A stretch of 64,000 nt of DNA from a virus, in the IMG/VR virus record IMGVR_UViG_3300047508_000265, positions 1-64,000 of that record; one strand, 5' to 3'. The notes beneath the pieces were generated by a model. The model was not told the origin of the DNA. It did not search any database and worked only from the letters and a program-made list of their open reading frames with translations. Shown in pieces: positions 22,793 to 59,064 of this stretch. Position 1 is the first letter of the stretch. Every line of letters begins with the position of its first letter. A program made the position numbers and the translations under genes.

Positions 22793-22793
<1 letters not shown>
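22074..22793 (-). CDS. Glycine-rich tail tip protein, 239 aa
   Basis: An N-terminal beta domain (MAYVEEFTTTQSWTCPAG...) leads into glycine-rich blocks (GGGGAGGG, then GGAGGGA) and ends GYVRLLYGLG. This fits the glycine-rich tip domains of phage receptor-binding proteins, which pack as polyglycine II helices. It follows directly after the long collagen-like fibre gene, so it probably sits at a fibre tip. Confidence 0.75.
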
Positions 22794-25804
<3,011 letters not shown>

Positions 25805-25805
25805 G

Positions 25806-26198
25806 TCATCTACGTACGTGCATTTTGTTAGCAGCGCCAAAGTTCAAGGCGTTACGTGGAAGCACAATGCCACGAGTTCCAAAAGGCGTTACTGAATTAG
25901 TCAAGCCATTAACTCCCATTGCTCCCGGAGCCGCAGGATTGGGGTCCCCTTCGCTCTGCTCTGGTGACATAGACGGATCAATAGGCATGCCGTCAACTTG
26001 AACAATCTCCATCAAGCCCGCTTCATCAACACGAAAAGTTCCCACAGCATTGAATAAATCTCCTGCAGCAAGTCCATCAGGCAAAGGATAATTTTTAGGT
26101 AGTGGGAAAGTTACTCTCGGAGCTTCTGATATTGGCTCACCAGCAGGGTTAGTCTGCGGCTTCATCATCTGCGAAATTATATTACCGACATTGGCCAT
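25806..26198 (-). CDS. Conserved phage protein, 130 aa, paralog of the 108-aa protein
   Basis: Shares [14 protein letters not shown] and [11 protein letters not shown] with the protein at 21014. N-terminus [14 protein letters not shown] versus MPNKASDIIAQMKG also matches. The tail ends NKMHVRR. Its position just upstream of the long fibre suggests a tail-associated role. Confidence 0.6.
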
Positions 26199-28625: not shown

Positions 28626-29813
28626 TTAGGCACCAGTACAACCAGTGTCGCCAGGAATCACTGGACCACAGCGTAAGTGACGAATCACATAACCGAGGTC
28701 AGGACGCTCTTCTTTTATCCCATACGCAAATAGCGCACGGAAGAAGCCGATGTTGCCATCGATATTGCAGTCCCGGGACGGGATGTTGCGCCACACGAAC
28801 TCACCTGCCCACGAATACTGGGCGAGATAGGTCATGCCGCCAATGTTGCCCTGAGGCTTGGGAATCAGCACACGAAGAACTTCCTCGTGATAGATTACCG
28901 TATCCTCGTAGTCAGCATCTTTGTAGACGTCATTAACCAGCCATTTCTGACCGCGAGAAGCACTTGCAGCAGAATACGGATATCTCCGCGCATAGGCGCC
29001 GGTCACGATATCGTATCTAGGCGGAAACTGCACAGCTTGGAATTTAAAGCCATGGTAAACTTTTCCGCCAAGCCCAGGAGCACCAACCAATACATCAGGT
29101 TCGTTAAACGAGAAATACCGGTAGTCATTCCTGTTATTGGAACTCAGTTTCTTGAGGTTGTTGAACGTGTAATTCGAGCCAACCGCTGTGTAAACAGCAG
29201 TGCCATCATCAACACGCGCAGTAGGTTTCAAAGTTCCGCCATTATACCCAAGCTCTTGGTGAATTGTTTCAAGCAACTCAAAGCTCAAGGTTGATGTAGG
29301 CGGAACAGAAGCGTCAAAGGTTGTCTCAATCGTAGGCGAGGCGCCTATAGCTGAAACACAATTAGCTGAATGGGCGATTACTTCTGTTTGATAGGTCTGG
29401 GACCAAACCCACTTTGAATTCTCGGCGAGAACTCTAGTTACGTTTTTGATCTGGTCTAGCACCTGCCATTGGAACTTGAAATCATCCAAGCAGATATCTG
29501 GACTATTGACGGCAGCTTTCTTCAAAGCCACGGTCTTCACATCAACAGCGAAACTGTCAATGTTATAGCCAGTGATAGAACATGCGCCGGTACCGATCAG
29601 GTTATTACCTGTGGCACCAGTGGCGCTGAGAGTTGCAAACGACTGGAAGAAATCCGCATCCGTTACCGCTTTCGTGATTAACGATCGCTGATATATTGGG
29701 TACGAATATTGATAGCCTTGGCCGTCAAGCCAAGGTTCCTTCGGCAGTGTTTTAATGTAAAAATCTGAGTCTTGAATTTGGACTGCAACCAATATTGTTA
29801 CTACCTTTTCAGG
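28626..29813 (-). CDS. Major capsid protein, exon 2 (main part)
   Basis: The continuous open frame starts at TTG 29792, but coding continues upstream (PEKVVTILVAVQIQD) up to the intron. With exon 1 (29989-30069) the spliced product would have about 422 residues. It follows the scaffold-like gene and precedes tail genes, the usual capsid position, and has the expected mixed beta-rich composition for an HK97-type shell. No catalytic motif. Capsid role rests on position and size. Confidence 0.7.
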   Translation of the reverse strand, partial: PEKVVTILVAVQIQDSDFYIKTLPKEPWLDGQGYQYSYPIYQRSLITKAVTDADFFQSFATLSATGATGNNLIGTGACSITGYNIDSFAVDVKTVALKKAAVNSPDICLDDFKFQWQVLDQIKNVTRVLAENSKWVWSQTYQTEVIAHSANCVSAIGASPTIETTFDASVPPTSTLSFELLETIHQELGYNGGTLKPTARVDDGTAVYTAVGSNYTFNNLKKLSSNNRNDYRYFSFNEPDVLVGAPGLGGKVYHGFKFQAVQFPPRYDIVTGAYARRYPYSAASASRGQKWLVNDVYKDADYEDTVIYHEEVLRVLIPKPQGNIGGMTYLAQYSWAGEFVWRNIPSRDCNIDGNIGFFRALFAYGIKEERPDLGYVIRHLRCGPVIPGDTGCTGA

Positions 29814-29988
29814 CGGCTATGAGCTTTCGCCATAGCTCTTTGGTTTTATCTATATCCAAAGATCGGACTATATCATCCCTTTCGGGCCCTGCGTATAGTC
29901 TCTACGGGGTCATTTACGACTTCCCTCGGTATTGTCCTTTTCAGGAGTTTCACCGATATAGCAAGGTTTTCCATTTCAGCTATTTCTA
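29814..29988 (-). ncRNA. Very small group I intron in the capsid gene
   Basis: About 175 nt, no ORF inside. Sequence elements in minus-strand order: P1 pairs exon TTTCAGT (29995-29989) with GCTGAAA (29980-29974) with U.G at the 5' splice site; P3 CCTTGC with GCAGGG; P4 TCGGT with ACCGA; P5 TCCT-GAAA-AGGA; P6; P7 GACTATA with TATAGTC; P8 CCC-GAAA-GGG; P9 hairpins. These form a complete group I catalytic core. The 3' splice G is placed at 29814; a second in-frame G at 29805 would give 184 nt. Confidence 0.85.
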
Positions 29989-30069
29989 ACTGAAACGCGA
30001 CGTTGGTCCATCGTTCCGAATTAGCATCGAATGATCAAGAAACAGATTTTCTAAAGCAGTACATGCCAT
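29989..30069 (-). CDS. Major capsid protein, exon 1 (27 codons)
   Basis: ATG at 30069 with AAGAAAG about 10 bases upstream. Encodes MACTALENLFLDHSMLIR and stays open to AGT at 29989, where the group I P1 helix places the splice site. Joining to CCTGAAAAG at 29813 keeps frame. Without splicing the frame stops within the intron. Confidence 0.75.
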
Positions 30070-30215
30070 AATAAAATCTTTCTTAAAAGGTTACACTGAG
30101 GATATTCCTATCGCCTAATGCGATAAGTCTCAGCTTTCTCCCTTTCCGCAGCGGTTATGAACTCGGATTAGGGAACTCCGAAACCGCGAAAAGCTAATTA
30201 AGGGTTAGCAACCCT
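30070..30215 (-). promoter_or_regulatory. Structured 5' leader of the capsid gene
   Basis: About 145 nt between the candidate promoter and the capsid ATG. It can form AGGGTTGCTAACCCT (30215-30201), an outer AGCTTT/AAAGCT helix enclosing GCGGTT/AACCGC and TCGGA/TCCGA stems, and TATCGC-ATTAG-GCGATA (30125-30109). Such layered stems suggest a cis-regulatory RNA, perhaps a control site for capsid synthesis. Confidence 0.55.
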
Positions 30216-30269: not shown

Positions 30270-30731
30270 TCAAGAAATTTCTTTATGAGGACAAACGCCA
30301 TAGTTAGATTTGGCGTTATTGCAATTGTGGCACAACACTTGAAAGCCTTTAGGAAATTTATTCTTTTTTAACCAACGATAAAAATCAGTTCCCGCTCTTC
30401 CATTAGTGTATTTACGTCTATGAGCATTGCCCCTTCCTTCTATATGATCAATTACTAAAAATTGAAAGATATCTTCACCACAACAAGCGCATTTAGATGG
30501 CGTACCGCCATAATGCTCCAAGCATTCTTTTCGAAGAGCTTGTTCCCGTTTCTTTTTCTTTGCGATAATCTCTACAGAATGATTACGATACCAGACTTTC
30601 CATCCCTTTCGTCTAGATCGTTTCCCTTTTTCGGACATGTAATATCGACGACTAGCTGCCTTCCCTTTGTCAGAATGGTTGTACCGGTATTCAGTAGCAA
30701 GTCGAGCTTCGCGCCGTTCATGAATATTCAC
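30270..30731 (-). CDS. HNH endonuclease upstream of the capsid gene
   Basis: 153 aa. Basic helical N-terminus, then a zinc knuckle (CACCGED), HNH core FLVIDHIEGRGNAHRRKY, FYRWLKKNKFPKGFQVLC and HNCNNAK. It belongs to the same subgroup as 1169, 45976 and 50100. Located directly between the scaffold gene and the intron-bearing capsid gene, it is a candidate mobility partner for that intron although it lies outside it. Confidence 0.9.
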   Translation of the reverse strand: MNIHERREARLATEYRYNHSDKGKAASRRYYMSEKGKRSRRKGWKVWYRNHSVEIIAKKKKREQALRKECLEHYGGTPSKCACCGEDIFQFLVIDHIEGRGNAHRRKYTNGRAGTDFYRWLKKNKFPKGFQVLCHNCNNAKSNYGVCPHKEIS

Positions 30732-32601: not shown

Positions 32602-34845
32602 CTACGCAGTTTGTTTAGCTTGTCCACTAACTTTTTGAGCCGCGGCGGCGTCCGCTAACGCTCGCGCCTGCGCTGCCGTAGCCGCCTTCTCTTTCATAGT
32701 TGATTGATGAAGTTCTTCTCGATGCCGTATCTTCTGACTGTGCTCCTCTTGGGATTGACGGAGATTCTGAGCATGCTCATTCTCAGCCGCTTGAGAAGCA
32801 GGATCGGGCGGAGGAGGTTGAGTCGCAGCTTTAATCTGATCTTTCATCGCCTGCCGCTTGGCCCTATCGTCCGCTGCAGAAGTGCGCTCGGCTAAATTAT
32901 TAAATTTCCTAGTCAACTCAGCAACTAACTTCTCCTGCAATTTATCCGGTTTCAAAAGCTGCATATGCTGCGCGGAATGTTTCGTCTTCAATATCGCCAC
33001 CTGCAAAAGTTGCGGGGTGGCCTGACCCTGTTCAAGTTGAACTAAGTCGTTCTCCAAACTGGGTAAATGCGCCTGTAGATGAAGAATATGATGATCGTTG
33101 GGCATGACCGACATAGGAACACCATTACTCATTGCGACATTTTGGAGTTCGGCAATCTCGGCATCAAGCGGAGTCCGGCCATTCATTTGAATTGAAGGAA
33201 CAAATTCGTCTACTTGTGCGTATCCTACCTTTTGAGCAAACTTAGCACGAAGCAAATTATTCTGGCCCACTGGATCAAGGGAACCCCAATAATCCATAAA
33301 GTCATCGAACGCAGCCTCTCTCGCTGCGGGCGAACCATACCCAACTGCACGATAAGGTTCCACCCAAGAAGTGAGATCCATTAGCATGACTTCAGGAACG
33401 CCTCGCCTCATACATCTTTCTCTATAGGCGAAAACTTGTATGCCTCCAGGATCGTTTTGCTTTAGCTTTGGATTTTTAACTCGCCGCCATACCTCGTTCA
33501 GGTGGCGCTTCCATGGCTGATAGAAAAGATTCAAGGACGCTGTTGGAAGAACTGACTCCTCGGCGATATCCGCTCGCTTCTCGAATTTGGTTTTTCTCTG
33601 ATCGCCACTTTGCTTCTGATTTACATTAGGCTGCTGATCCTGCAGCAACATAGACATGTCCTGAATAATTGGAAGCATGCTATCAGATGGATTCTGAAGT
33701 TTTGTCTGAACCACATTAACCTCAGGTGGGATATAGACCACACCACCGTACCAAATCAAAGCCATATCCTCCGCCTCAGTAGCTGACTTAGGCTGAATAA
33801 TCATGCTACCCGCCAATCGAGCGTTATCTACCGATTGATTACGAACTGTGTTAAGAACCTGTGCTTCGGGATACCTTTCATGAGCTAGGCCCCTGACGGA
33901 ATGCAACTGACCGTTGGTCCCAACCTCGTAAGGAAAAAAGTTGAAACATTGATTAACGTTCTCGAACCGATTTTCGTACTTGAATAAGTAGTCTTCATTA
34001 TCGCCAAGGCGCAAAGTTAAGTAATAGGAAACTTTCCCGGAATATTCTTTCACCCAGCAGTGAGCTAACTTCACATACTCATTCGCCTTTGTAGCTGCAA
34101 AAATGTCGTTATTTTTAAGAATCGTTTCCCACTTTTCCCATTCTCCCTGCGACCAAACTGCCTGCTGATTGTACGCCTTTAATATCGCCTTATAAACTTC
34201 CGGCCTGTTCCAACGCTTATCTCCGGGATCGCTTTGCATACACCATTGATAAAGAGTAGATACTGTAACCTCTCGAAATGCTACAGCGATATCTACTTCC
34301 TCTTCAGCAAGTGTAGTTCCGCGAGCCATCTTAAAGTCCTCCATACCCGCAACTCGCCACTGCCAATTCAAGTCGTCCTGAAAATACAGAAATCCCATAC
34401 CATGAGTAACAAATTTCTGAACAAGCAATTGATGGTACGTTTCAAAAGACGACCAATCCTTTAACATCTTATGAAATTCTTCCGACATGACGGAACACCA
34501 CTCTGATCGCTTAGTGGGATCAACGTCCATGTTAGAATTCACACGAGCCAATACTGGAACTGATTCAGTTAGATCATAATAAGATACACACTCTCGTTTT
34601 ACTCTACGCTTAAGATCAAGGAAGTTTAAGTTAGCACGACCTTCTTGTCCCGAATCTCGCATATACTGTTCATCATATGGCGCCTTGCCATCAACTGCAG
34701 CCTGTATGTCCTGTCGCTGCAAGGCAGAAATTAAATCCAACTCAACAATCTTCTTGACAATATTGTTAAGAGACCCAACATCGGCGATACGCGTTTTAGG
34801 GGCTTTGCCGGTTTCTGTTATTTGAGCGAAGTTAAAATCTGCGAT
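32602..34845 (-). CDS. Portal protein, about 747 aa, non-AUG start
   Basis: Large protein between the terminase and scaffold genes, with DGKAPYDEQYMRDSGQEG, VPVLARVNSNM and a helical Gln/Glu/Ala-rich C-terminus typical of portals. The frame stays open upstream of the first TTG (34740) through ADFNFAQITETGKAP and KTRIADVGSLNNIV, to an ATC at 34845 preceded by AAGGAAGG at the right distance. This extended part looks coded, so I take an AUC (or AUU) start; TTG at 34740 is the conventional alternative. Confidence 0.75.
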   Translation of the reverse strand: MADFNFAQITETGKAPKTRIADVGSLNNIVKKIVELDLISALQRQDIQAAVDGKAPYDEQYMRDSGQEGRANLNFLDLKRRVKRECVSYYDLTESVPVLARVNSNMDVDPTKRSEWCSVMSEEFHKMLKDWSSFETYHQLLVQKFVTHGMGFLYFQDDLNWQWRVAGMEDFKMARGTTLAEEEVDIAVAFREVTVSTLYQWCMQSDPGDKRWNRPEVYKAILKAYNQQAVWSQGEWEKWETILKNNDIFAATKANEYVKLAHCWVKEYSGKVSYYLTLRLGDNEDYLFKYENRFENVNQCFNFFPYEVGTNGQLHSVRGLAHERYPEAQVLNTVRNQSVDNARLAGSMIIQPKSATEAEDMALIWYGGVVYIPPEVNVVQTKLQNPSDSMLPIIQDMSMLLQDQQPNVNQKQSGDQRKTKFEKRADIAEESVLPTASLNLFYQPWKRHLNEVWRRVKNPKLKQNDPGGIQVFAYRERCMRRGVPEVMLMDLTSWVEPYRAVGYGSPAAREAAFDDFMDYWGSLDPVGQNNLLRAKFAQKVGYAQVDEFVPSIQMNGRTPLDAEIAELQNVAMSNGVPMSVMPNDHHILHLQAHLPSLENDLVQLEQGQATPQLLQVAILKTKHSAQHMQLLKPDKLQEKLVAELTRKFNNLAERTSAADDRAKRQAMKDQIKAATQPPPPDPASQAAENEHAQNLRQSQEEHSQKIRHREELHQSTMKEKAATAAQARALADAAAAQKVSGQAKQTA

Positions 34846-35293
34846 AAAAATCCCTTCCTTTAATTAGATTATCTCGGGCCCAAAGCGGCTGGGTATTGGT
34901 ATAATGAAAGGCAGCTTTCTGACCAGCTAATGTAGTAAGGTCAAATTTACAAATTGGGATTTTGTGGTCAATGTGCCATTCACCATAATTTGTCCAAGAC
35001 ATCCCAGGAACAAACTGTCGCTCAAGAAAAGTTTTGTAAAAGTGATAAGAACAGCCCAACAACTCCTTAGTATGCCCCATTTTCAGTAATCCAGATACCG
35101 CTCTTCGCACACGTTCACGACAACTATGTCGTAACTTAACTAAAGGTTTTTGTTTATATTTTCGACAAGCCGCTTTATGCTTTTCTGGATTAGCTAACTG
35201 CCAGCATTTACGGTATCCTTTAAATTCTTCAGGATGTCCTAATGCCCATAAATACTTGTACATTCTTCTTTCCAAATCAGTTAACTTGGCCAT
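34832..35293 (-). CDS. HNH endonuclease between terminase and portal
   Basis: 153 aa, ATG at 35293. Core WHIDHKIPICKFDLTT and the downstream helix QPLWARDNLIKGRDF fit the HNH type that binds DNA without the CxxC knuckles of the other subgroups, so it is a third lineage. Its last codons overlap the portal start region by 14 bases. Confidence 0.85.
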   Translation of the reverse strand: MAKLTDLERRMYKYLWALGHPEEFKGYRKCWQLANPEKHKAACRKYKQKPLVKLRHSCRERVRRAVSGLLKMGHTKELLGCSYHFYKTFLERQFVPGMSWTNYGEWHIDHKIPICKFDLTTLAGQKAAFHYTNTQPLWARDNLIKGRDFYRRF

Positions 35294-35330
35294 GATCAAT
35301 TAATCTTAGGCGATGCCCCGATAAAGTCAA

Positions 35331-45975: not shown

Positions 45976-46320
45976 ATGTATTACAAAAGTAAAAAATTTT
46001 ACAAGACACGGAAACGTTATGCTAAAACGCATCGAGTCGAGCTACGAATTAAGCAACGTCAATATAATAGAAAACTAAAAGAAGATATATTTAATCATTA
46101 TGGAATCGAATGCGCTCACTGTAAATTTTCTGATTTACGAGCTTTATCTATCGATCATATTAACGGGGGCGGCACTCAACATAGAAAAAAGTTTAAAAGT
46201 CCCTACTCTTTTTACATATGGTTGCGACAAAATAAATTTCCAAAAGGGTTTCAAACTCTTTGTATGAATTGCCAATTTATCAAACGACATACAAACAACG
46301 AAAGTACCCGAATAAAATGA
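45976..46320 (+). CDS. HNH endonuclease
   Basis: 114 aa from ATG 45976 (MYYKSKKF); a TTG at 45940 would lie inside the hairpin. Core CAHCKFSDL, LSIDHINGGGTQHRKKF, FPKGFQTLCMNC. Stop codon overlaps the ATG of the dNMP kinase. Same subgroup as 1169, 30270 and 50100. Confidence 0.85.
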   Translation: MYYKSKKFYKTRKRYAKTHRVELRIKQRQYNRKLKEDIFNHYGIECAHCKFSDLRALSIDHINGGGTQHRKKFKSPYSFYIWLRQNKFPKGFQTLCMNCQFIKRHTNNESTRIK

Positions 46321-48343: not shown

Positions 48344-50103
48344 TCACTTACGATTTTGACTACGAGACCTACTACGATCGTGATTTTTCAGTTAAGACCC
48401 TTGGAAATTGGATGTATACTCACGACGAACGTTTCGATGCTTATCTTCTCACTGTTGAAGGCGACAACGGTTACGAGTGGGCAGGGAATCCAAAAGAATT
48501 TGATTGGGAAAGATTCAATGGACAAATCGGAGTAGCGCACAATGCAGGATTTGACTTCGCGGTAACAGAACGGCTAAAGGAATTAGGCATCGCGCCAGCT
48601 TTTACATGGGCAGAACTTTATGACACTGCTGACCTTGCAGCCTATCTCGGCTACCCACGGAGTTTAGCTTCCGCATCTTTTCATCTTCTAGGCGTCAGTC
48701 TTAGCAAGGAAATACGCGACAAGGCTAAAGGAAAGCATTGGAATGAAATGACGCCTGAATTCCAGAAACAAATGCTCGCCTATGGCAAGAATGACTCCAA
48801 AATTGGGCTACGTCTTTGGAAAGAGCATGGGCACAAGATGCCACAATGGGAACGCGAGCTATCCAGATTGACGAGAGAAATGTGCTGGCGGGGAGTTCCT
48901 ACAGACCCAGCAAAAGTCAAGGCAGCTATCACAAATCTTGAGACCCGCTTGATCACAGCACGGTCGTTGATTCCATGGGTTAAGGATAATCCAGAGGCGC
49001 CAGTATTGTCATTGAAGCAAGCAGGACTGGAAGCTCGCAAGCACGGCGTAGCACCGCCAAAGTCGTTTGCGAAAGATAGTGAGGAATTTGCAGAATGGGT
49101 TACGCAATACGGCGAAAAATTTCCATGGGCCCGCGGGCTAGGGGAATATCGCAGCGTTAACATGTTGCTCCAAAAACTAATTACACTCAAAGAAAGAACA
49201 GATTCGTCTGGCGTATTCCGTTATGGATTAAAATACTTTGGGGCGCATACAGGCAGAGACAGTGGTGACTCCGGTTTCAATCCACAAAATTTGGCAAGAA
49301 AACCGATGTTTGGGGTTGATGTTAGAGGATGCGTTATTACCGCTCCAAAAGGATATATTTTAGGAATCGCAGACGAGGCCGCTATTCAACCTAAAATAGT
49401 AACTCTTTTTTCAAAAGACAAAGAAATTTTGGATCTTCTGCACAAAGGGCAAGATATTTATGAGGCCCAAGCTAGAATATCTCATGGTTACACAAATCCT
49501 GAGCCTCTAAAAGAGAGCGATCCCGACTTCCGCAAACATATGAAAGTCGAGTTATTGGGCTGCATGTTTGGTGCTGGCGCCGCAAAAGTACAAATTATCG
49601 CCAAACAACAGGTAGGACTGGATATCTCCTTCTCCGAGGCAGAGAAGATTGTAAACACCTTTCGCAAAAGAAAATTTATTCCAAATTTATGGAAGCATCT
49701 TGAATCGCAAATAGCAAAATCTGCTCCAGGAGACTGGGAACTTGAACTGCCCTCAGGCAGAATAATGAACTACCGAAATGTACGAAGCTTTGGGAACACC
49801 AGTGCCGAAATTCCACGACTAGGAAAAATGCTGCGAGTAAAATTATGGGGTGGCACATTATGCGAAAATTTAGCCCAAGCGGTAGAACGAGATATAGTAA
49901 TGTGGCATGTTCTTCAAATAGTTAGTGCTGGATTTCAAATTCTGCTAAGAGCGCACGATGAATTAGTCCTATTATTAAAAGAATCCGAAGCAGAAACAAA
50001 ATTAGCAGAAGCTCTTGCTATAATGAGTCAGCCTCCGCCATGGCTTAAAGAATTTCCTGCTGGAGCAGAAGGGCAACTTAGCAAATCCTATAAGAAAATA
50101 TGA
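48340..50103 (+). CDS. Family A DNA polymerase with 3'-5' exonuclease, 587 aa
   Basis: Exonuclease motifs FDYETY at 6-11, AHNAGFDF and YGKNDSKIGL. Polymerase motif A IADEAAIQP (D345), motif B KVELLGCMFG, motif C HDE (539-541). Motif A has Gln350 where Pol I has the steric-gate Glu of DYSQIE. Short phage-type Pol A without a 5'-3' nuclease domain. Sandwiched between two HNH genes that overlap it by ATGA on both ends. Confidence 0.9.
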   Translation: MITYDFDYETYYDRDFSVKTLGNWMYTHDERFDAYLLTVEGDNGYEWAGNPKEFDWERFNGQIGVAHNAGFDFAVTERLKELGIAPAFTWAELYDTADLAAYLGYPRSLASASFHLLGVSLSKEIRDKAKGKHWNEMTPEFQKQMLAYGKNDSKIGLRLWKEHGHKMPQWERELSRLTREMCWRGVPTDPAKVKAAITNLETRLITARSLIPWVKDNPEAPVLSLKQAGLEARKHGVAPPKSFAKDSEEFAEWVTQYGEKFPWARGLGEYRSVNMLLQKLITLKERTDSSGVFRYGLKYFGAHTGRDSGDSGFNPQNLARKPMFGVDVRGCVITAPKGYILGIADEAAIQPKIVTLFSKDKEILDLLHKGQDIYEAQARISHGYTNPEPLKESDPDFRKHMKVELLGCMFGAGAAKVQIIAKQQVGLDISFSEAEKIVNTFRKRKFIPNLWKHLESQIAKSAPGDWELELPSGRIMNYRNVRSFGNTSAEIPRLGKMLRVKLWGGTLCENLAQAVERDIVMWHVLQIVSAGFQILLRAHDELVLLLKESEAETKLAEALAIMSQPPPWLKEFPAGAEGQLSKSYKKI

Positions 50104-50399
50104 GGGCCCGCGATCAAGCATATGTGGATAAAATCTTCAATCACTACGGACGGAAATGCATCTGTTGTGACGAAGATGAAATACGTTTCCTAACGATTGA
50201 TCATATCAACAACGACGGAAATAAACACAGAAGGAACTTCAAACAATACACCGGCGCCGCATTTTATCGTTGGATTGTGAAGATGGGATTTCCAAACGAT
50301 CTTCAAATCCTATGTGCTAATTGTAATTCAGGCAAACATCGTAATGGCGGTATATGCCCGCACCAAACAAAAGCGGCCAAAGAAATCGAGGAAGGGTAG
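50100..50399 (+). CDS. HNH endonuclease after DNA polymerase
   Basis: 99 aa, starts on the ATGA of the polymerase stop. Zinc motif CICCDEDE, core FLTIDHINNDGNKHRRNF, FYRWIVKMGFP and LCANCNSGKHR. Compact version of the subgroup with 1169, 30270 and 45976. Confidence 0.9.
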   Translation: MRARDQAYVDKIFNHYGRKCICCDEDEIRFLTIDHINNDGNKHRRNFKQYTGAAFYRWIVKMGFPNDLQILCANCNSGKHRNGGICPHQTKAAKEIEEG

Positions 50400-58592: not shown

Positions 58593-59064
58593 AATTATTT
58601 ATTCGCTTTTATGGGGTTTAGTTTTTCCTGAAAAAAGGAAAGTGATTCTTCATAAGTATAATATTTCGGATAAAAGAAAAGCGGTAACGAGACGATATGC
58701 ACAATCTGAGCGCGGAAAACAAACTATTACAGCTTATAACAATTCATCTCAAGGTAAGAACAATAGACGGCGAGCCAAACGAAAATACAAACGGTCTGAA
58801 AAGGGCCGACTAAAGAATTGTGTTCATGCTGCAAAACGTAATGCTCTGAAGAGGTGTCGTACGGTTGGTGATCTTTTTGCTATAGAAAAGGTTTACGCTC
58901 GTGCGCAAGAGCTTCGACAATGGTTTGATGTTGTAGTTGATCATATTGTTCCTCTTGCTAAAGGCGGCGCCCATTCTCCAGAAAATTTGCAGATTATTTA
59001 TGCTTTTGAAAATGAACGCAAGGGAGCCCGCTTAGATTATAAGCCACGAGTTATTTTCAAATGA
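58573..59064 (+). CDS. HNH endonuclease before ribonucleotide reductase
   Basis: 163 aa, GTG start. Basic N-terminus, RTVGDLFAIEKVYARA, VDHIVPLAKGGAHSPENLQII and ends PRVIFK. Its stop overlaps the reductase ATG (ATGA). TIGDL family with 10916, 41206 and 47903. Confidence 0.9.
   Translation: MTETNAKIIYSLLWGLVFPEKRKVILHKYNISDKRKAVTRRYAQSERGKQTITAYNNSSQGKNNRRRAKRKYKRSEKGRLKNCVHAAKRNALKRCRTVGDLFAIEKVYARAQELRQWFDVVVDHIVPLAKGGAHSPENLQIIYAFENERKGARLDYKPRVIFK

Follow-up and report, generated by a model that had tools for sequence, protein, structure and literature searches.

Short group I introns without an ORF and split capsid genes are already known from phages, and the locus described here is a further case. 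In the Jug phages, 2,513 group I introns with a mean length of about 206 nt have been reported (PMC12363816). For capsid genes, an intron was described in mycobacteriophage LittleE, in a paper that also cites lactococcal phage Tuc2009 (PMC3706429), and the crAss-like Delta and Zeta phages have multi-intron major capsid protein genes (PMC7886860). For the psbA intron of S-PM2 and the endonuclease F-CphI, collaborative homing has been described (PMC6083498).

The DNA analysed here is a 64,000-nt stretch (the window) of an 83-kb virus record, IMGVR_UViG_3300047508_000265. The original prediction had placed a group I intron in the major capsid gene and had regarded its shortness and its location as unusual. 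Neither is, given the Jug introns on the one hand and those of LittleE and the Delta and Zeta phages on the other. The intron itself is very probable and sits at the major-capsid position, but its splice sites, P1, and length differ from those first proposed. Our reading, which we hold with high confidence, is that a 220-nt group I intron without an ORF splits a probable major capsid gene immediately after codon 20; splicing would remove it and rejoin the exons.

As in LittleE, a group I intron lies in a (here probable) capsid gene, the last base of exon 1 is U and that of the intron is G, and the joined exons restore a protein matching intron-less relatives (PMC3706429). The LittleE intron is, however, 819 bp long, contains an endonuclease gene, and has been shown to splice, whereas the intron of the window is 220 nt long, ORF-less, and predicted from sequence. 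The Jug phages share small introns and many stand-alone HNH genes with the window (PMC12363816), but are gut phages of 360–402 kb with about 18 introns per genome, compared with one detected in the 83-kb record. The Delta and Zeta phages likewise have group I introns in the major capsid gene (PMC7886860), although with several endonuclease-containing introns per gene rather than a single ORF-less one. The S-PM2 psbA gene resembles the window in that an intron-bearing gene lies beside a free-standing endonuclease gene (PMC6083498); cleavage of the intron-less allele was demonstrated there, whereas the window offers gene neighbourhood alone and an HNH enzyme of a different type.

Exons of the interrupted gene

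An open frame on the minus strand (28626–29792) starts abruptly, and an ATG upstream of it, at 30069, opens MACTALENLF. Searches with the exon 2 protein recovered 40 other phage records of the family, to which it is 42–84% identical. In 39 of the 40, the frame is contiguous from the ATG through ...LIRN(D/N)↓V... or a close variant (arrows mark junctions), the exon 1 N-terminus running straight into exon 2 sequence, as in L001, which reads MACTALENLFLDHAMLIRNDVAVSIQDSDFYIKTLPKEPW. Alignment of the window to these relatives gives MACTALENLFLDHSMLIRND followed directly by VAVQIQDSDFYIKTLPKEPW. Because the 39 uninterrupted relatives read across the site, the intron was placed at 30009..29790 (junction 30010/29789):

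30010..30069, minus strand: exon 1 of the probable major capsid gene, ATG...CGG AAC GAT, encoding MACTALENLFLDHSMLIRND, an N-terminus common to all 39 uninterrupted relatives
30009..29790, minus strand: predicted group I intron, 220 nt, starting GGACCAACGUCG and finishing ...AGUAACAAUAUUG, with omega-G at 29790; junctions from protein homology, RF00028, and covariation
28626..29789, minus strand: exon 2 of the probable major capsid gene, starting GUU GCA GUC and encoding VAVQIQDSDFY... to the stop

The spliced protein would read MACTALENLFLDHSMLIRND and then VAVQIQDSDFY, joined as ...RND↓VAV..., and the segment across the junction is SMLIRNDVAVQIQDSDFY. The short upstream exon encoding MACTALENLF had been proposed in the original prediction and is borne out at 30069..30010. 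Homologues starting inside exon 2, named there as evidence against an intron, were absent; all relatives start in exon 1. No further copy of the gene was found in the 83-kb record, which rules out a second copy as the source of capsid protein. In L003, L048, L050, and L049, the capsid frame shifts with no large insertion (after NNLP in L003, after PKEPWL in L049), for which an assembly indel and a real frameshift are both possible.

In the leader of the gene (window 30096–30133, minus strand), a hairpin has a bulge of roughly 5 nt (GAAUU/GAACU type) on its 3′ side. When members were folded, a hairpin was seen at the equivalent place in L001–L004, L044, L047, and L049, with stems that differ and pairing that looks preserved, and a second motif, CGCACGAATGGAATAAGGCG, precedes it in L001–L003. 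No Rfam family matched the leader, and the hairpin is possibly a new cis-acting capsid leader RNA.

Identity of the interrupted gene

Pfam, PHROGs, PDB sequences, and profile–profile comparison gave only negative or low-confidence results for the window protein and did not establish it as a capsid protein. AlphaFold models reached a pLDDT of about 30, with no confident HK97 or other fold. Searches for relatives of the capsid protein in bacterial and archaeal genomes found none, and capsid and terminase searches in annotated phages gave no match. The gene comes after terminase-, portal-, and scaffold-like genes, labels that reflect length, gene order, and sequence motifs rather than any library match, and its protein is strongly conserved across the family. 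In the relative L100 (3001–4458), the protein at the capsid position has an extra inserted domain at residues about 280–360, of a kind common in virion and tail proteins. Gene order, family conservation, and this virion-type domain point to the major capsid gene as the probable identity. Elsewhere in the window, 22793–25840 encodes a collagen-like tail fibre protein of 1015 amino acids with long repeats.

Predicted RNA structure of the intron

The predicted structural elements are listed below; L002 and L009 are phage records with related introns.

30010..30013, minus strand: exon side of P1, CGAU, with a U30010.G30001 wobble at the 5′ splice site (pairing scan, shuffle test)
30002..30005, minus strand: intron side of P10, CAAC, pairing with exon 2 GUUG (29789–29786); counterparts in L002 (7 bp) and L009 (4 bp)
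29998..30001, minus strand: guide side of P1 (IGS), GUCG; L009 has an identical GUCGC guide opposite a GCGAU exon end
29972..29997, minus strand: P2 hairpin with GAAA loop, paired with compensatory changes in the window, L002, and L009
29961..29966, minus strand: 5′ strand of P3, CCUUGC, compensatory change at 5 of 6 pairs
29926..29956, minus strand: P4 (29956–29952/29930–29926), 100% paired, and P5 with GAAA loop (29946–29943/29938–29935), 97.6% paired, 3 of 4 pairs compensatory
29906..29925, minus strand: P6 and P6a (core alignment)
29866..29900, minus strand: P7 (29900–29896/29870–29866), 98.2% paired, 3 of 5 pairs compensatory; 3′ strand of P3 (29892–29887); P8 with GAAA loop (29886–29877)
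29802..29865, minus strand: P9, P9.1, and P9.2 hairpins (fold comparison)

The interrupting RNA folds well beyond shuffled sequences (z −5.35, 0 of 200 shuffles as good). A search with the Rfam group I model, suggested as a check in the original prediction, gave a match to RF00028 at E 1.3e-8 and 40.5 bits, below the Rfam curated cut-off of 50, which is a curator's threshold and not a defining feature of group I introns. Across the whole 83-kb record, a single RF00028 match was obtained (E 2.2e-10). Introns with the same core motif in L060 and L038, and a similar core in PA28, score above 50 bits.

For covariation, 11 introns sharing the core motif were aligned to a manually drawn structure that includes the P3/P7 pseudoknot. 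In this alignment 92.6% of cells pair, compared with 81.3% in shuffles, and compensatory change is seen at 15 of 29 pairs, P3 and P7 included, against 7.0 in shuffles. None of 500 shuffles matched the observed pairing and covariation, a test that sequence relatedness may inflate; in a control that retains relatedness, sliding the partners by one column, pairing fell to 43–47%. P3 is paired in 93.9% of cells, P4 in 100%, and P7 in 98.2%, with the pseudoknot intact. P8 aligns poorly across members, and no reliance was placed on it. With the RF00028 match, the fold, and this covariation, the group I core first proposed for the intervening RNA stands.

The short P1 (4 bp) and the RF00028 score under the curated cut-off would also fit a degenerate intron that no longer splices, leaving the phage defective or the capsid protein translated from an internal start, TTG 29792. 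We regard this as very improbable: the core is intact, no P3, P4, or P7 pair being broken, the record has no other copy of the gene, and the exon 1 N-terminus is kept in every relative.

Splice junctions and guide pairings

Exon 1 ends in U30010 (...CGG AAC GAU↓), the intron in G29790, and exon 2 begins with G29789. With the junction set by the relatives, P1 has the U.G wobble of group I introns at the 5′ splice site; the intron-terminal G and a P10 with the guide (GUUG/CAAC) are both present as well. RNA pairing played no part in setting this junction; there, P1 and P10 form an unbroken run of 8 pairs (shuffling the guide region gives p about 0.007). No ORF was found on the coding strand of the intron, in agreement with the original prediction. 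An in-frame UAG lies at 29988–29986, nt 22–24 of the intron, within P2, and unspliced RNA would yield a peptide of only 27 residues.

The intron had first been drawn from 29988 to 29814 or 29805 (175–184 nt), with UUUCAGU/GCUGAAA as P1. This pairing is the top U.G-type P1 in a blind scan, with 9 pairs, and both 3′ positions are in frame, but a group I intron with these boundaries is highly unlikely. They are off by 21 and 24 bases, and 29988 is part of the in-frame UAG. Splicing there would leave GPTSRFS plus up to about 8 residues, an extra peptide missing from all 39 relatives, and no in-frame P10 is available. The supposed P1 is instead the P2 hairpin, which in L002 and L009 lies inside the intron with altered yet paired sequence, varying independently of the exons.

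For the 220-nt intron, the transcript would fold into P1–P9 with the P3/P7 pseudoknot, and exogenous guanosine would attack after U30010, within the U.G pair of P1. With exon 2 kept in register by P10, the freed exon 1 would next attack after omega-G 29790. Ligation would give ...RND↓VAV... and so restore the capsid protein. Until splicing, the in-frame stop in P2 would keep ribosomes off the core.

Related introns in L002 and L009

The sister phage L002 (protein identity 83–84%) has a homologous 220-nt intron in the equivalent gene, inserted 16 nt upstream (GCC AU↓...↓G UUG AUU). Its P1 is GCCAU/GUGGC and its P10 has 7 bp, giving 12 pairs together, a result that none of 20,000 shuffles equalled. 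In L009 (IMGVR_UViG_3300047408_000046), the intron is 223 nt long, with P1 GCGAU/GUCGC and P10 CCAA/UUGG; the p-value of 1.5e-4 for these pairings is not independent, the junction having been picked with their help, whereas the protein match is. Spliced at the guide-predicted junction, the L009 gene matches major head protein phrog_1357 over residues 6–332 of 335. Both introns have the layout of that in the window, and each guide fits its own exons. The L009 intron resembles that of the window in its core (85% identity), layout, GUCGC guide, lack of an ORF, and location in a major head gene, but it interrupts a different capsid family and is inserted near the 3′ end of the gene. In L009 (10192–10414), one intron frame continuous with exon 1 lacks a stop, and an extended capsid variant with an altered C-terminus could be made from unspliced RNA.

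A structured RNA between the coding segments, with a stop codon shortly past the take-off point, would also fit translational bypassing of the kind seen in T4 gene 60 (programmed hopping), in which ribosomes skip the 220 nt and no RNA is spliced. For bypassing, however, a full group I core with covariation, P1, P10, and omega-G would be superfluous, and homologous cores occupy other genes with guides fitting their own exons; we give this explanation almost no credence.

Intron-body identity is 83% between L002 and L009, 77% between the window and L002, and 79% between the window and L009; the corresponding core values are 91, 85, and 85%. A tree of the short core gave no supported resolution of origin. 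The L002 intron is thus at least as close to that of L009, in an unrelated capsid family, as to that of the window. Because of this, and because the insertion sites differ, two separate acquisitions are the likelier history, and the window and L002 introns were probably acquired separately rather than inherited. Both insertion sites read AU↓GUUG, which alone cannot separate DNA homing from reverse splicing, since a splicing intron must match its site. A compact ORF-less lineage moving between and within phage capsid genes by RNA-level reverse splicing at 4–5 matching bases, with the window and L002 sites as endonuclease-free retargeting through a change of guide, is an unlikely explanation.

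Distribution of the core motif

Exact-motif scans, blind to host gene, gave 23 sequence clusters, 1 of which was judged not to be an intron, leaving 22 non-redundant introns including that of the window. In this small sample, with gene types assigned by us, 13 of the 22 lie in major-capsid-type genes, called by PHROG match or alignment to such a protein, or by gene position for the window and L002. Portal (L010), terminase (L064), and tape-measure (L059) genes account for one each, and six introns have no gene assignment. Core-motif matches in L054 and L070 sit in open coding frame and were rejected as introns.

In several phages, a single capsid gene has at least two breaks, and L060, L066, L069, and L038 have at least two RF00028 matches each. 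Multiply broken major head genes of the phrog_1357 type, with several RF00028 matches per locus, were seen in L060, L066, L069, L053, L057, L038, and L039; the breaks fall at about residues 23, 57, 92, 184, 250, 277, and 300 (L007 protein numbering). The portal gene of L010 (5486–7900, minus strand) carries an apparent intein in addition to its group I intron.

HNH endonuclease genes

A free-standing endonuclease gene adjoins the ORF-less intron in the window:

30270..30731, minus strand: HNH endonuclease gene, upstream of the capsid leader and outside the intron (phrog_2255, E 1.3e-5, a weak match)

The original prediction had noted this free HNH gene just upstream, and it is indeed present at 30731..30270, but the record contains five paralogues, this one included, and L049 has such a gene without an intron. 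The other four paralogues lie at 1193–1501, 45979–46284, 50055–50366, and 58636–58869 in the window, that at 50055–50366 carrying internal stops. An endonuclease VII-like gene (34832–35299; phrog_1035) lies between the terminase and portal genes.

An HNH gene occupies the equivalent gap in L002 (28% identical to that of the window) and in L049 (43%). Both intron-bearing phages (the window and L002) thus have one, as does 1 of the 39 intron-less records (L049); no such gene turned up in the remaining 38. These counts are weak, since the phages are relatives of one another and a few of the records end early on the upstream side. Collaborative homing, in which the upstream HNH enzyme would cut intron-less capsid genes near the site and repair would copy the intron, is compatible with our reading of the intron and has F-CphI and psbA as a precedent (PMC6083498). 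We put it forward tentatively, as a possible route rather than a probable one: the distribution of HNH genes in the gap is in its favour, whereas the low identity between the window and L002 proteins, the five paralogues, and the intron-less L049 speak against it. The association is only suggestive of a free-standing HNH endonuclease that may have helped the intron to spread.

Discussion

Sequence comparison shows that the gene carries an insertion and, through the intact relatives, exactly where it starts and ends; the core is conserved, and both P1 and P10 pair at these boundaries. We infer catalysis, splicing of the 220-nt intron in vivo, and the identity of the gene as a capsid gene. The most useful part of the finding is the pair of nearby insertion sites in the window and L002. 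For this uncharacterised phage group, a probable capsid gene would be expressed only after RNA splicing, and gene callers would therefore misplace the start of its protein.
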